Shown one piece after another: positions 17,176 to 28,849 of a stretch of DNA of 64,000 nucleotides. The stretch lies in contig JAFDXF010000093.1 in the NCBI GenBank assembly GCA_018268055.1, positions 1 through 64,000 of the forward strand, read 5' to 3'. Origin of the DNA: Bacteroidota bacterium (GTDB lineage Bacteria > Bacteroidota > Bacteroidia > Chitinophagales > Chitinophagaceae). Numbering within the stretch: position 1 is the stretch's first letter; every line of letters begins with the position of its first letter. The notes under the pieces are model-generated. The model saw only the letters and a program-made list of their open reading frames with translations. It was not told where the DNA came from and did not search any database. Both the position numbers and the translations under genes were made by a program.

Positions 17176-18588
17176 CTATCCCAACCCCACTTCATAATGC
17201 AATTCAGGAATCTCCACATCATGAAAATCTTTTTTCAAAAGTCTTTGTTTGAAATCTAACTGCACATTATACTCTCCGTGCACAATAAATAATTTTTTAA
17301 CTTGCCTTGGATCCTGACAAGCAAGCCATTGGCAAAGATCGTCATAATCGCCATGCGCACTCATGCTGCGAATAGAACCAATTTCTGCATGCACTTCGTG
17401 TTTAACACCATAAATACCTACTTCTTTTTCGCCTGCAATAAGTCGTCCGCCTAACGAGTGTGGCTCACAATAACCGGTAAACAAAATAGTATTGCGACTG
17501 TTTTCAATATTATTGCTGATATGATGTTTTACTCTGCCGGCATCTGCCATACCGCTTGCAGAAATAATCACCATCGGTTCATCCAAATAATTCAATTGCT
17601 TTGACTGATCTACGGTCTGAATATAGCGCAACCCTTTAAATGCAAAAGGATCATTATCCTTTTGCATTAACTTCTGAATGTTATTATTAAAATATTGAGG
17701 GTACTCTTTAACAATTTCTGTTGCTTTAATACTCAAAGGACTATCTACAAAATAGTTCAGATTAGGTAATCTGTTTTCTAATTCGAGTTGATTTAATGAA
17801 AATAATAATTCCTGAGTTCTTCCTACACTGAATGCAGGCATAATAAGTTTGCCTTTCTTTTTCAAGCAAGCCTTTTCAATCCATTCAAGGAGCATATCAG
17901 GTGTTGTAGTATTATTATCATGCAAGCTATTTCCATAAGTAGATTCCATAATAATATAATCTGCCTGTGGAAAAACATCAGGTGATCTTAAAATAATATC
18001 CCGATAACGCCCTACATCGCCACTAAAGGTAAGTGTAGAATCCTGCCCGCCCCACTTACTTTCATTTATCTTGAGATTCACACATGCACTACCAATAATA
18101 TGGCCGGCATCAGCAAACATTACCTGCACTCCTTCTATTATTTCAAACCATGTTTTATACTCAACTTCAGAAAAATGCGATAGAGCCTTCATTGCATCTT
18201 CCATATTATACAAAGGTTGCAGATCGGGTTTTTTATTAAATGAATGGCTTTTATTAGCATACTTTACCTCACTTTCTTGAATCTCGGCAGAGTCTTTTAA
18301 TAGTACTTCTGTTAGCGATTTCGTAGCAGGCGTACAATAGATTCTACCGGTATATCCTTCTTTTACTAATTTAGGTATCAAACCCGAGTGGTCTATATGT
18401 GCATGAGAAAGCACCATCACATCAATTTCTTTAGGGTCAAAACCAAATTCACGATTCAGAAAATCTGTATCATCGCCCAGTCCCTGAAACATACCGCAAT
18501 CCAACAAAACTTTTTTTCCATTCTTTAATGTGAGTAAATGTTTGGAACCGGTTACGGTTCTTGCAGCACCATGAAAAGCTACTTTCAT
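17176..18588 (-). CDS. MBL-fold beta-CASP metallo-hydrolase (RNase J/CPSF-like)
   Basis: This 470-residue protein is a metallo-beta-lactamase-fold hydrolase with a beta-CASP insertion and a C-terminal RMMBL/Zn-dependent RNA-specificity region. The HxHxDH motif is SHAHIDHSG at residues 61-69. Other metal ligands follow in FADAGHIIGSA and LTFSGDVGR. MPAFSVGRTQELL marks the start of the beta-CASP domain, and VHGEYNV lies near the C-terminus. Family members act as RNA endo- or exonucleases in RNA processing and turnover. No signal peptide is seen, so it should be cytosolic. Its natural RNA targets are unknown. Confidence 0.92.
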   Translation of the reverse strand: MKVAFHGAARTVTGSKHLLTLKNGKKVLLDCGMFQGLGDDTDFLNREFGFDPKEIDVMVLSHAHIDHSGLIPKLVKEGYTGRIYCTPATKSLTEVLLKDSAEIQESEVKYANKSHSFNKKPDLQPLYNMEDAMKALSHFSEVEYKTWFEIIEGVQVMFADAGHIIGSACVNLKINESKWGGQDSTLTFSGDVGRYRDIILRSPDVFPQADYIIMESTYGNSLHDNNTTTPDMLLEWIEKACLKKKGKLIMPAFSVGRTQELLFSLNQLELENRLPNLNYFVDSPLSIKATEIVKEYPQYFNNNIQKLMQKDNDPFAFKGLRYIQTVDQSKQLNYLDEPMVIISASGMADAGRVKHHISNNIENSRNTILFTGYCEPHSLGGRLIAGEKEVGIYGVKHEVHAEIGSIRSMSAHGDYDDLCQWLACQDPRQVKKLFIVHGEYNVQLDFKQRLLKKDFHDVEIPELHYEVGLG

Positions 18589-18685: not shown

Positions 18686-18766
18686 GCCCAATGCGCCCCC
18701 ATTATCGTCGCCTAATGCGCCGCTGCGCTTGCATTAGGCTCAATGAATATTTGCCTTTCAGGCAAT
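18686..18766. repeat. 81-bp direct repeat, copy A
   Basis: This is identical over 81 bp to copy B at 18912-18992. It carries a 9-bp stem GCCTAATGC (18710-18718) / GCATTAGGC (18731-18739) and a second stem TTGCC (18751-18755) / GGCAA (18761-18765). The copy begins with GCCCAATGCG, which also occurs at 18848. After the copy, a further shared 21-bp block follows at 18809-18829 with stem AAGGC/GCCTT. Confidence 0.9.
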
Positions 18767-18835
18767 GCGTGCAAATTTGAAATGTCATCAAATTTTCGGA
18801 ATAGCTGCCAAGGCTGAAGGCCTTGTTTACATTTA

Positions 18836-18856
18836 GCATTGGGCATCGCCCAATGC
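18836..18856. repeat. Perfect 9-bp hairpin between the two repeat copies
   Basis: GCATTGGGC (18836-18844), loop ATC, then GCCCAATGC (18848-18856). It shares the GCCCAATGCG element with the start of both 81-bp copies, so it is probably a partial or truncated member of the same element. Confidence 0.85.
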
Positions 18857-18911
18857 GATACAATTGAACAACGTAACAACATTCAATTCATTATCATCAT
18901 TTGCAATCGTT

Positions 18912-18992
18912 GCCCAATGCGCCCCCATTATCGTCGCCTAATGCGCCGCTGCGCTTGCATTAGGCTCAATGAATATTTGCCTTTCAGGCAAT
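18912..18992. repeat. 81-bp direct repeat, copy B
   Basis: Exact duplicate of copy A, 226 bp downstream, with the same two internal stems (18936-18944/18957-18965 and 18977-18981/18987-18991). The shared 21-bp AAGGC/GCCTT block follows again at 19018-19038, but the DNA between the 81-bp unit and this block differs. The repeat therefore consists of conserved hairpin modules with variable joints. Confidence 0.9.
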
Positions 18993-19089
18993 AACTCCGT
19001 TAATTGAAAATAACGATCAAGGCTGAAGGCCTTGTTTATATTGAATATAATGGCAACGGCAAGTAGGTTTTTATAAAACAATCCATTTA

Positions 19090-19584
19090 CTATGCATTTG
19101 TCTTCTTTGCTTTAAATGACCAAGTGATATAAAATTCAGCAATTTTATTTCCTTCGTTATCTGTACCAATAGATTGTGCAGTTACTATTCTCGCCTCCCC
19201 TGTATTCATTGTTTCTTGAATGGCATTTTCAAATAATTTTCCATCCACACATTCAAAATATGTTCTTGCAGTAGCTTTTTTAAAATATTCCGATTCCACT
19301 TTCACTACCAGCATACTCACCGCAGGATTACTCTTATATAGATGCGCCATGGCCAAACTACCTGTACTCATTTCTGCCGCCATACTCAGGCAGGCAAAAT
19401 AAGTAGAATGAAAAGGATTTTGTGAAAGCCATTTATAGGGTACAGAAACCACGCATCGTTTTGTATCTACTTCTCTTATTCGTACACCTGCAAGAAATGC
19501 TGCGGGTAGCCTAAATAAAAGAAACATCCTGAATTTTACAGGATGTTTCATCAATTGTATAAACTTATCGGTATAAGGTGTCAT
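19090..19584 (-). CDS. Hotdog-fold protein, DUF4442-like (possible thioesterase)
   Basis: With the ATG at 19584 the protein has 164 residues; a longer frame from 19620 would overlap the upstream gene by 14 bp. It resembles DUF4442 and PaaI-type hotdog proteins, which hydrolyse acyl-CoA thioesters. Motif-like segments are NPFHSTYFACLSMAAEMSTG, shown here as HSTYFACLSMAAEMSTG near residue 60, and VVKVESEYFKKATART. The catalytic residues are not obvious. No signal peptide is seen. It lies 22 bp downstream of the papain-like protease and may be co-transcribed. Confidence 0.7.
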   Translation of the reverse strand: MTPYTDKFIQLMKHPVKFRMFLLFRLPAAFLAGVRIREVDTKRCVVSVPYKWLSQNPFHSTYFACLSMAAEMSTGSLAMAHLYKSNPAVSMLVVKVESEYFKKATARTYFECVDGKLFENAIQETMNTGEARIVTAQSIGTDNEGNKIAEFYITWSFKAKKTNA

Positions 19585-19606
19585 TACAAACACAATTAAT
19601 ATTCTG

Positions 19607-21181
19607 TTACTGCTTATCAATTGCCACTATACTGGCTACTGCTTTATTGGTATTAGCATCAACTTTAAAATACATAGTACCTGTGTTCGTGCTATTGAAT
19701 CGTGCACTTGGTATTGAAATATTTTGTACTGCTTCATTTACCTTGCCTTGATAAGTACTTTGCTTGCTCTGATTGATTGCATTATTCAATTGGTTATAAT
19801 CCAATTCATCTTTACTTACTACAACTGCTATGTAATCTTTATTGCCCAGAGAATCTGCTTCCAATGATTGAGATTTTGGGAACAATCTGTAACCAGTGAT
19901 ACCACAATATGGTGAGTGCTTGGAAACTGTTTCTCCTTTTTTCAGATAAGGGAATAAAACGTAGCTGCTACCATCCGTTTCCTGACCGAATACATAGATA
20001 TAACATTCTGTAACATTATTAATTTCCATTTTGAAACGAGTGCCAACTTTTATAGGAGATACCGTTTCAAATAGATTACTACCTGAAGAACGAAGCTTGA
20101 TGTATTGTCTGTCAGCATTGTTTACAAGACCTATTGAACATTCCAATGGAATATTAGCTACATCACTTCTTTTGGGCATCGGATCCATGCCATAGGCTTC
20201 ACGTACATAATTTTTAAAATCTCCGTAGCGTACCCAACCTATTCCATTGTTTCCCCATTGTGGTGTCCAACTGTTCATTATCTGAAATGCGCCACCAAAT
20301 TTTCTATCATCATAACCGATGACACACATTGCATGTCCGCCCTGCCCCATTCCCGAAGCATCCATGTTAGTTGGTGTCCACAATTCTTTTCCCATCATAT
20401 CTTGCATAAAGCTCTGACCTACCATCATACCGATTACCACCGGTACATCTTTTGCCAAATGCTCTTTTATTGCTCTTGTATTTATTTGTTCATTATCATT
20501 TGTAAGGCGTGTAAAACCATGAATTCTGAATTGCTGACCTTGTTGAATCTGAGTTCCCGTAGGCATACGATCGCAATCCTGATCGCTGTATGGATAATTG
20601 CTCAGTGGCACACCACCGTTTCTGCTCATCGCTTCCATTGCTCTTTGTACATAAGAGCCTTGGCATCCGTCTAATTTAATTTGATTGTATAAATAAGATG
20701 GGCTGAATTTTATTTGATTAGGATCGGCATGTGTTGCGGCCGAAAATAAAATTGTTTGTGCTGCATAAGCACTGCTCCATGCCACACAGCTACCTTGCTG
20801 GCCTTGATCGCCTCTTTCCGGCGCAAAGCGTAGTAGAGATACTGCTTCCGGCAATGCTTTTTGGTTAGCAGGATTTTTTGGATCCAGTTCCTCATAGATA
20901 GATGCTTTATTAAAAGTGTCCTTATTGAAATTGTAACCACTTTGAGAAAAAAGATTTTGCACTGCTTGTGTACTGCATCCGCTGCCTTTTCCCAATAGAA
21001 AATAAGCGCCTACTGCAAGAGCAATTAACAAAATGGAGCCTTTGCCTCTGAAAAGGCTTAATAACAAAGGTAGCAGTCCCATTAAACCACCACCGCCGCC
21101 ACCGGGGAAATTGGAATTACCACCACCACTATCATCTTGTTCGTTCGGATCAAATGGGTCATCGGTCATTCTAATTGGCAT
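19607..21181 (-). CDS. Papain-like C1 family cysteine protease with N-terminal membrane anchor
   Basis: The protein has 524 residues from ATG 21181 (a longer frame from 21232 is less likely). The N-terminus is Asp/Gly-rich with a poly-Gly run, then one transmembrane segment (about residues 50-65, SILLIALAVGAYFLLG). The peptidase domain shows catalytic Cys in QGSCVAWSSAYA near residue 130, His in GQGGHAMCVIGYDD near 282 and Asn in NSWTPQWGNNGIGWV near 302. The C-terminal ~170 residues resemble DUF4384, with YIYVFGQETDGSSYVLFPY. It is a probable membrane-bound protease facing the periplasm. The N-terminal Gly-rich/TM layout resembles YpfJ-type zinc metallopeptidases, but the catalytic domain is different. 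Confidence 0.88.
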   Translation of the reverse strand: MPIRMTDDPFDPNEQDDSGGGNSNFPGGGGGGLMGLLPLLLSLFRGKGSILLIALAVGAYFLLGKGSGCSTQAVQNLFSQSGYNFNKDTFNKASIYEELDPKNPANQKALPEAVSLLRFAPERGDQGQQGSCVAWSSAYAAQTILFSAATHADPNQIKFSPSYLYNQIKLDGCQGSYVQRAMEAMSRNGGVPLSNYPYSDQDCDRMPTGTQIQQGQQFRIHGFTRLTNDNEQINTRAIKEHLAKDVPVVIGMMVGQSFMQDMMGKELWTPTNMDASGMGQGGHAMCVIGYDDRKFGGAFQIMNSWTPQWGNNGIGWVRYGDFKNYVREAYGMDPMPKRSDVANIPLECSIGLVNNADRQYIKLRSSGSNLFETVSPIKVGTRFKMEINNVTECYIYVFGQETDGSSYVLFPYLKKGETVSKHSPYCGITGYRLFPKSQSLEADSLGNKDYIAVVVSKDELDYNQLNNAINQSKQSTYQGKVNEAVQNISIPSARFNSTNTGTMYFKVDANTNKAVASIVAIDKQ

Positions 21182-27795: not shown

Positions 27796-27859
27796 CTATT
27801 TCAAATAAATTTTAAATAAAGATAAACACTTCGACTTGCTTGATGCAGTATAAAATATT

Positions 27860-28849
27860 TTATCCTAAATCAATGCTTGTATTATCGCCAATATTCAGCG
27901 AGCGGGTTTCGCCTCTAAGGTTTGCATCACTTCCGATTATCGATTCATCCAAAACAATATCCAATAAGTTGGAAAATGAGCCGATAATAGAATTGCGGAC
28001 AATGGATGAACCAATAATTGTGTTTTCGCCTATTGCAACGTTTGGCCCGATGATAGAATTATTAATGCTACAACCGTCGCCTATACTAACTGGAGGAATA
28101 ATGACCGTATTTTCAAATTGATTTGCATTAACCGTAGGTGAAAACTTTTTCAACAACGTAGCATTCGATTCCAGCAAGGTTTCTTTCTTGCCACAATCAA
28201 ACCAATTCTCTACTTTAAATGATTTGAACTTTACGCCTACTTGAATCATACAATCCAATGCATCAGTAAGATTATATTCTCCATGACTTTTTAATCCGTG
28301 TATTATATTTTTTTCAATGCACTGAAACATTTGTGCAGTCTCCCGAATTTTATAAATACCCACCATAGCCATATTTGACTTTGGTATCTGTGGTTTTTCT
28401 ACAACATGTAAAATATTACAATCCTCATCAATTTCTGCTACGCCAAAATTTCGGGGATCATCTACTTTACGTACACCAATCATGGAAACGGTGCTTTCTA
28501 CTACTTCTTTTACATTGTATTCGCAAATTGTATCTCCTAAAACCACAATAATTTCATCATTGGCGATTAAATTATAGGTCAATCGGATTGCATGACCTAC
28601 ACCTTGCCTATCTCCTTGATGAACATAATGTGCACTGATTTCCGGATGTTTTGCTTTTACATAATCTTGAATTTTATCACCAAGATAACCGACAATAAAT
28701 ACAAATTCGTTCACACCGGCTTCTTTCAACTGGTCAATAATTATACTCAATACTGTTTTACCTGCAAGTGGTATCAGCGCCTTGGGTTGTGTGTAGCTGT
28801 GCGGACGTAGTTTGGTCCCAGCACCGGCTACCGGTATTATAGCTTTCAT
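27860..28849 (-). CDS. Sugar-1-phosphate nucleotidyltransferase with short left-handed beta-helix tail
   Basis: The 329-residue protein joins an N-terminal nucleotidyltransferase domain (AGAGTKLRPHSYTQPKALIP, the NTP-binding signature, then GYLGDKI and VVLGDTI) to a C-terminal hexapeptide-repeat helix of about five coils (from residue ~250, with INNSIIGPNVAIGENTIIG, trimmed here to SIIGPNVAIGENTIIG). It probably activates a sugar-1-phosphate to an NDP-sugar for cell-envelope glycans; glucose-1-phosphate thymidylyl- or uridylyltransferase is likely but unproven. A separate acyltransferase active site is not evident in the helix. Confidence 0.86.
   Translation of the reverse strand: MKAIIPVAGAGTKLRPHSYTQPKALIPLAGKTVLSIIIDQLKEAGVNEFVFIVGYLGDKIQDYVKAKHPEISAHYVHQGDRQGVGHAIRLTYNLIANDEIIVVLGDTICEYNVKEVVESTVSMIGVRKVDDPRNFGVAEIDEDCNILHVVEKPQIPKSNMAMVGIYKIRETAQMFQCIEKNIIHGLKSHGEYNLTDALDCMIQVGVKFKSFKVENWFDCGKKETLLESNATLLKKFSPTVNANQFENTVIIPPVSIGDGCSINNSIIGPNVAIGENTIIGSSIVRNSIIGSFSNLLDIVLDESIIGSDANLRGETRSLNIGDNTSIDLG

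Follow-up and report, generated by a model that had tools for sequence, protein, structure and literature searches.

Two identical hairpin-rich repeats stand in an intergenic gap of a Bacteroidota genome (Chitinophagaceae; GCA_018268055.1), and the locus raises the question whether they belong to a mobile element, to a structured RNA or to a local duplication. The window, that is the whole stretch of DNA analysed, comprises 64,000 nucleotides of contig JAFDXF010000093.1. We consider it probable that the gap repeat is a REP/MITE-like multi-hairpin mobile element that lacks a GTAG tag and is served in trans by a TnpA of the Y---Q--HH type.

Hairpin modules of the gap and its junction

The original prediction of two identical 81-bp copies with internal stem-loops, 226 bp apart, was confirmed. 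Positions 18686–18766 and 18912–18992 (+ strand) are 100% identical over 81 nt with a start-to-start distance of 226, and the recent duplication that had been proposed is plausible for this part. Each copy contains hairpin D (18710–18739 and 18936–18965), in which a 9-bp stem, GCCTAATGC..GCATTAGGC, encloses a 12-nt loop, and hairpin A' (TTGCCTTTCAGGCAA, TTGCCT-TTC-AGGCAA; 18751–18765 and 18977–18991). The second shared block, rightly expected at a different distance, is 34 nt long with 85% identity (18800–18833 and 19009–19042, spacing 209 versus 226) and covers hairpin C (CAAGGCTGAAGGCCTTG, CAAGGC-TGAAG-GCCTTG; 18809–18825 and 19018–19034). The GCATTGGGC hairpin seen between the copies is hairpin B (18836–18856), GCATTGGGC-ATC-GCCCAATGC with a 3-nt loop. 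All these hairpins lie on the + strand, and the window repeat comprises four hairpin types in the fixed order D, A', C and (once) B, with variable joints: the two copies are unlike in the A'-C spacer and in the sequence after C. GCCCAATGCG stands at 18686 and 18912, and 18836–18848 and 18908–18920 form an inverted pair; GCCCAATGCG resembles what a truncated B hairpin would leave of its right arm, a joint that had not been noticed before, and copy 1 would then consist of a B right-arm remnant, D and A'.

Folded as DNA, the 365-nt stretch gave z-scores of −5.16 on the + strand and −4.17 on the − strand, and none of 100 dinucleotide shuffles folded as well on either one; with RNA parameters the values were −3.90 and −3.58, respectively. 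The stems also covary within the window's own family: among D stems found via A', 130 of 171 cells were paired as compared to a shuffled mean of 114, a value reached by 0 of 2000 shuffles. Superior RNA folding, covarying stems and the position of the gap between two co-directional genes would all agree with a structured RNA, such as a terminator, an mRNA stabiliser or a UTR element, that was multiplied by duplication. However, the folding as DNA is at least as outstanding, the copies described below stand in differing gene contexts, and an Rfam search of the window returned tRNAs and no other match, which spoke against the tandem structured RNA of the original prediction. We regard such an RNA as highly improbable. 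Just before two minus-strand tRNA genes, at the start of window and contig (1–156), a 45-bp unit occurs about three times, and at 27840–27873 of the window there is an imperfect, AT-rich palindrome whose 24-nt arms overlap and are 88% complementary.

Both neighbours of the gap are encoded on the − strand: a 470-aa gene (17176..18588), which by likeness we take to be of the MBL fold, and a 176-aa ORF (19090..19620) that is presumably thioesterase-like, again by likeness. Orthologues of the two were adjacent in 26 of 29 relatives examined, and the hairpin element was absent from the junction in 26/26 relatives with both neighbours. The spacing between the neighbours amounts to 6–134 nt in 25 relatives (BLAST ends) and to 505 nt in the source genome. 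On this comparison the hairpin element is an addition to the junction in the source genome. One relative (L199, 794–1501) has 707 nt between the neighbour genes and no triloop hairpin there, presumably a different insertion at the same place.

Copies in the source genome and the transposase gene

A BLAST search of the 401-nt stretch against its own genome yielded 28 matches at 12 places on 10 contigs, the window included. A tandem duplication confined to this locus and lacking element identity, for which the identity of both 81-bp copies could be quoted, is refuted by these 12 places and by the presence of the same modules in a transposase array (see below), and has next to no probability left. 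The original prediction would have fallen with a single locus and no conservation in relatives; this condition fails on the genome count, though the search of 147 genomes (threshold 1e-6; at most 4 candidates scored per genome) revealed the exact DNA of the element in none besides its own.

All 13 of 13 element stretches are intergenic, that is outside any ORF of at least 120 aa. In a module scan the order D-A'-C-(E)-B recurred place after place, some places having modules missing. Hairpin B (up to 3 mismatches) was detected on contig C8 and in the window, with 0 matches for the reversed control. At four of the 12 places (C31, two on C84, and C89) we found a gene-less unit of 183–184 nt, measured from the start of D to the terminal hairpin, with the same hairpin order, D-A'-C-A, and the same spacing; it closes with hairpin A, GCCCTGAAAGGGC. 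A MITE would be a short gene-less unit with constant ends that is moved in trans, and the constant unit at these four places makes the element a candidate for this class. With 12 places the element has few copies by the standard of REP families, for which more than 100 are described as usual (PMC2817692). Two of the 12 places are at contig ends, as is expected of repeats in a draft assembly.

The earlier suggestion of a dispersed REP/BIME-like or MITE-like element was right. The canonical REP label does not fit: neither GTAG nor GTGG occurs on either strand of the window element, and the transposase linked to it belongs to the Y---Q--HH type and not to the class 2 RAYTs. We also considered CGTC, which precedes the D stem in both window copies, as a tag of the element and rejected it, since most other copies have ATC, GTC or GCC before D. 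The statement that there is no transposase applies to the window gap but not to the genome. Three PF01797 genes are present in the source genome, and one of them is flanked on both sides by the window's repeat family: a Y1 (IS200-like HUH) transposase gene for a 151-aa protein at C8:8055–8510, inside an array of window-type hairpins, with GCCCTTTCAGGGC directly after its stop codon. The other 11 of the 12 places are without transposase.

The C8 protein has the motifs HIH (NHIH), WQ and YIENQKEHH, corresponding to Y---Q--HH and not to Y---NP, and matches Pfam Y1_Tnp and the NCBIfam IS200/IS605 family transposase. A structural model of a relative's protein (L083; 33-row alignment) reached a mean pLDDT of 91.7 and a pTM of 0.85, and a fold search with it ranked the TnpA proteins of IS608 and ISDra2 best and the RAYT of E. 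coli (4er8) at position 30. Both the nearest folds and the NCBIfam name would suit an ordinary insertion sequence of the IS200-like kind, with hairpins at its ends, of which the copies seen here were decayed remains. This, however, we consider unlikely: the genome's two further Y1 proteins share 37% and 39% identity with the C8 protein, so that near-identical IS copies are missing; most places have no transposase, and the gene-less units are fixed in order and length.

The other two Y1 genes carry repeats of their own, unlike the window family. On C66, five tandem copies of ≈220–275 nt (L029, 177–1517) that are full of GAA/TTC triloop hairpins lie beside a Y---Q--HH gene and gave 8 matches, all on this contig. 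The third gene, on C31 (L031, 1282–2153), is bordered by 25-nt inverted ends (88% complementary) as an IS-sized single unit; a single, weaker match to its repeat was seen on C73.

Flanking hairpins at loci of the Y---Q--HH type

A scan with alignment A1 gave 580 confirmed loci in named genomes, of which the best 80, from several phyla, were taken; the sample therefore lies near the query and represents the family with a bias. Y---Q--HH is present in 76 of these best 80 of 580 loci, and most proteins other than that of C8 have DHIH or DHVH. Sixty of the best 80 of 580 loci were usable (full flanks and at least 5 controls). At least 40 bases common to both flanks (12-mers) were found at 43/60 of them versus 20/968 control windows of the same loci, and at least 80 common bases at 31/60 versus 5/968; control windows were drawn from genic and intergenic DNA alike, and general measures of this kind gain contrast by it. 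The exact-word results are less open to this: among the best 80 of 580 loci, GCCCTTTCAG occurred in 45/80 flanks and AGCCCAGGGC in 18/80, each versus 0/1333 control windows. A loop motif, GCTGCGCTT, that we had picked by eye from the window's D and a Blastocatellia repeat was not enriched (1/80 flanks versus 20/1333 controls) and was discarded.

Triloop hairpins recur in the flanks across phyla. In the best 80 of 580 loci their density was 7.4 per kb upstream and 6.8 per kb downstream of the transposase gene and 0.63 in the controls. Stem lengths had two maxima: stems of 5 bp reached 3.19 per kb versus 0.39 in the controls, and stems of 8 bp 0.69 versus 0.016 per kb. Upstream loops were GAA in 77 and TTC in 21 cases, downstream loops TTC in 82 and GAA in 30 (best 80 of 580 loci), which indicates that the triloop hairpins are inverted around the transposase gene. 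The 8-bp stems of the same best 80 of 580 loci carry a 5' AG, mirrored inward, in 21/40 cases upstream and 21/33 downstream, with the opposite mark in 6 and 2 cases. A polarity mirrored around the transposase gene is expected of DNA ends and argues further against the structured RNA discussed above.

For a covariation test of the 8-bp hairpin, the B type, the GGGCNNNGCCC core nearest to the gene was selected per locus with pairing disregarded; 33 of the best 80 of 580 loci have one. In the four pairs outward of this core 117/132 cells are Watson-Crick paired (shuffled mean 72.1; 0/5000 shuffles as high), eight different fully paired outer quartets occur around it, and the pairing ends sharply past the four pairs, with 0.06 at the fifth.

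Canonical REP/BIME elements of a class 2 RAYT, whose hairpins carry GTAG or GTGG as a tag at their foot, would likewise be intergenic, palindromic, dispersed and linked to a transposase. The class 2-type model NF047646 has matches in 92 of 144 relatives, and 25 of its 30 best loci share flanking repeats, so that flanking repeats are not unique to the Y---Q--HH type. In the source genome, however, NF047646 gave one weak match, and the gene in the array has the Y---Q--HH and not the Y---NP motif. At 1020 hairpin feet of the best 80 of 580 loci GTAG was found once versus 6.8 times expected, and GTGG 6 versus 8.9 times. Given also the untagged window element, a class 2 system is a very unlikely source of the repeat. 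Triloop hairpins of 5 bp are more characteristic of the Y---Q--HH type than of the class 2-type RAYT, at whose loci their density was 0.40 per kb versus 1.69 per kb.

The link between transposase and hairpins is weaker inside the window's own order. In a set of 30 loci of this order, flank repeats were present in 9 of 25 with adequate flanks, only 5 loci had the 8–9-bp triloop hairpin, and the GAA/TTC polarity was not clear; with an unrelated gene as control, 1 of 29 flank pairs shared repeats. In Algoriphagus ratkowskyi (L137, 8200–10600) the end of another transposase gene, closely resembling the matched one, is seen just upstream of it, in an array whose repeats recur every ≈180 nt.

Genomes other than the source also contain gene-less copies of flank DNA. 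Queries of flank DNA gave 57 matches, with dispersed gene-less copies, in an acidobacterium (Blastocatellia) and 70, likewise with dispersed gene-less copies, in a planctomycete (Pirellulaceae), where none of six dispersed loci examined had a Y1 gene within 1.5 kb. Bacteroides xylanisolvens XB1A gave 6 matches; one gene-less C-B-A copy could be followed over its whole length, and two others border masked stretches.

Mechanistic model and relation to known systems

The hairpin element is real, dispersed and transposase-linked, and we infer its movement as follows. The gap would contain roughly 1.5 copies of a mobile element that is non-autonomous and has several hairpins; its complete dispersed unit of 183–184 nt has the order D - A' - C - E/B - A. 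The Y1 HUH transposase encoded at C8:8055–8510 would be supplied in trans. The hairpins may fold when their strand becomes single-stranded, as on the lagging-strand template, and a TnpA dimer would bind them in the folded state. The tyrosine of TnpA could then cut next to the hairpin feet, and the unit would be joined elsewhere. Intergenic copies presumably outlast selection, and tandem arrays may arise from repeated joining or from recombination between modules.

In a wider sense, we somewhat favour the assumption that the Y---Q--HH (subclass 1.2-like) TnpA represents a further ancient REP lineage apart from the class 2 RAYTs. This lineage would have a hairpin code of its own across phyla, in which an inverted 5-bp triloop pair, GCCCTGAAAGGGC, near the gene and a triloop hairpin of 8 bp with covarying outer half and 5' AG replace the GTAG tag. 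Gene-less units of several hairpins would be mobilised by such TnpA proteins in trans. Quentin et al. (2018, PMC6006769), in the part of their study that deals with the Y---Q--HH branch, report no REPs for it; if the branch does have untagged hairpins of its own, searches that rely on the tag underrate how common, and perhaps how old, REP-like systems are, and the taming of an IS200-like transposase together with its repeats would have happened in a line other than class 2. The system also offers a short, defined substrate set for how such enzymes choose hairpins without GTAG.

As far as the classification in PMC6006769 is concerned, subclass 1.2 of TnpA-Y1 is defined by Y---Q--HH and has a 'no' under REP in Table 1, and the automatic REP search described there needed a GT[AG]G tag. 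The C8 transposase matches this subclass and is a putative member, assigned by motif and not by the authors' profile. Features given there for subclass 1.2 and shared by our type are DH[IV]H or NHIH, WQ and Y---Q--HH, a length of about 150 aa (≈148), low copy number, low identity between the copies of one genome and Bacteroidota hosts; the difference lies in the untagged flanking hairpin repeats at most of the loci nearest the query (best 80 of 580). Subclass 2.6 of the Bacteroidetes, with 'atypical secondary structures' in the same account, resembles our case in its hosts and in hairpins other than GT[AG]G that were found by hand and have copies elsewhere in the genome, but its tyrosine motif is YIH[QN]NP whereas the C8 type has Y---Q--HH. 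The CGTC-tagged and untagged REPs covered by PMC3733652 are short palindromes as well, and the window copies share the CGTC before the D stem, while most other copies of the element are without it; CGTC REPs are reported to be without a dedicated transposase.

In the literature on RAYT, REP, TnpAY1 and IS200 palindromic repeats in Bacteroidetes we found no paper on repeats of the Y---Q--HH type, and two exact hairpin strings had 0 matches in papers. The main text of a 2021 TnpA-REP study (PMC8266576) contains neither 'class 1' nor 'Bacteroidetes', and the text of one paper with a 'RayT' gene near abeS in Chryseobacterium, as far as it was available, contains neither 'REP-associated' nor 'palindrom'.

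With IS200/IS605 elements (IS608, ISDra2) the present system has the protein fold, the catalytic motifs and end hairpins in common, but it lacks near-identical gene copies and has gene-less multi-hairpin units. The closest parallel in organisation is the REPtron (REP plus TnpA-REP/RAYT, e.g. in E. coli): a single-copy HUH-Y1 gene lies between palindrome arrays, and the palindromes are also dispersed gene-less in intergenic DNA. In this general sense two features of a REPtron were found, namely multicopy intergenic palindromes (12 places) and a transposase gene whose flanking repeats recur dispersed in other parts of the genome. The system differs in that it lacks the GTAG/GTGG tag, that each unit combines several types of hairpin, many of them with 3-nt loops, and that its transposase has Y---Q--HH and WQ and in the fold search was closer to IS200 TnpA than to the RAYT of E. 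coli. The system presumably works like a REPtron and, its hairpins having no GTAG tag, represents a type apart from the class 2 RAYT/GTAG family.
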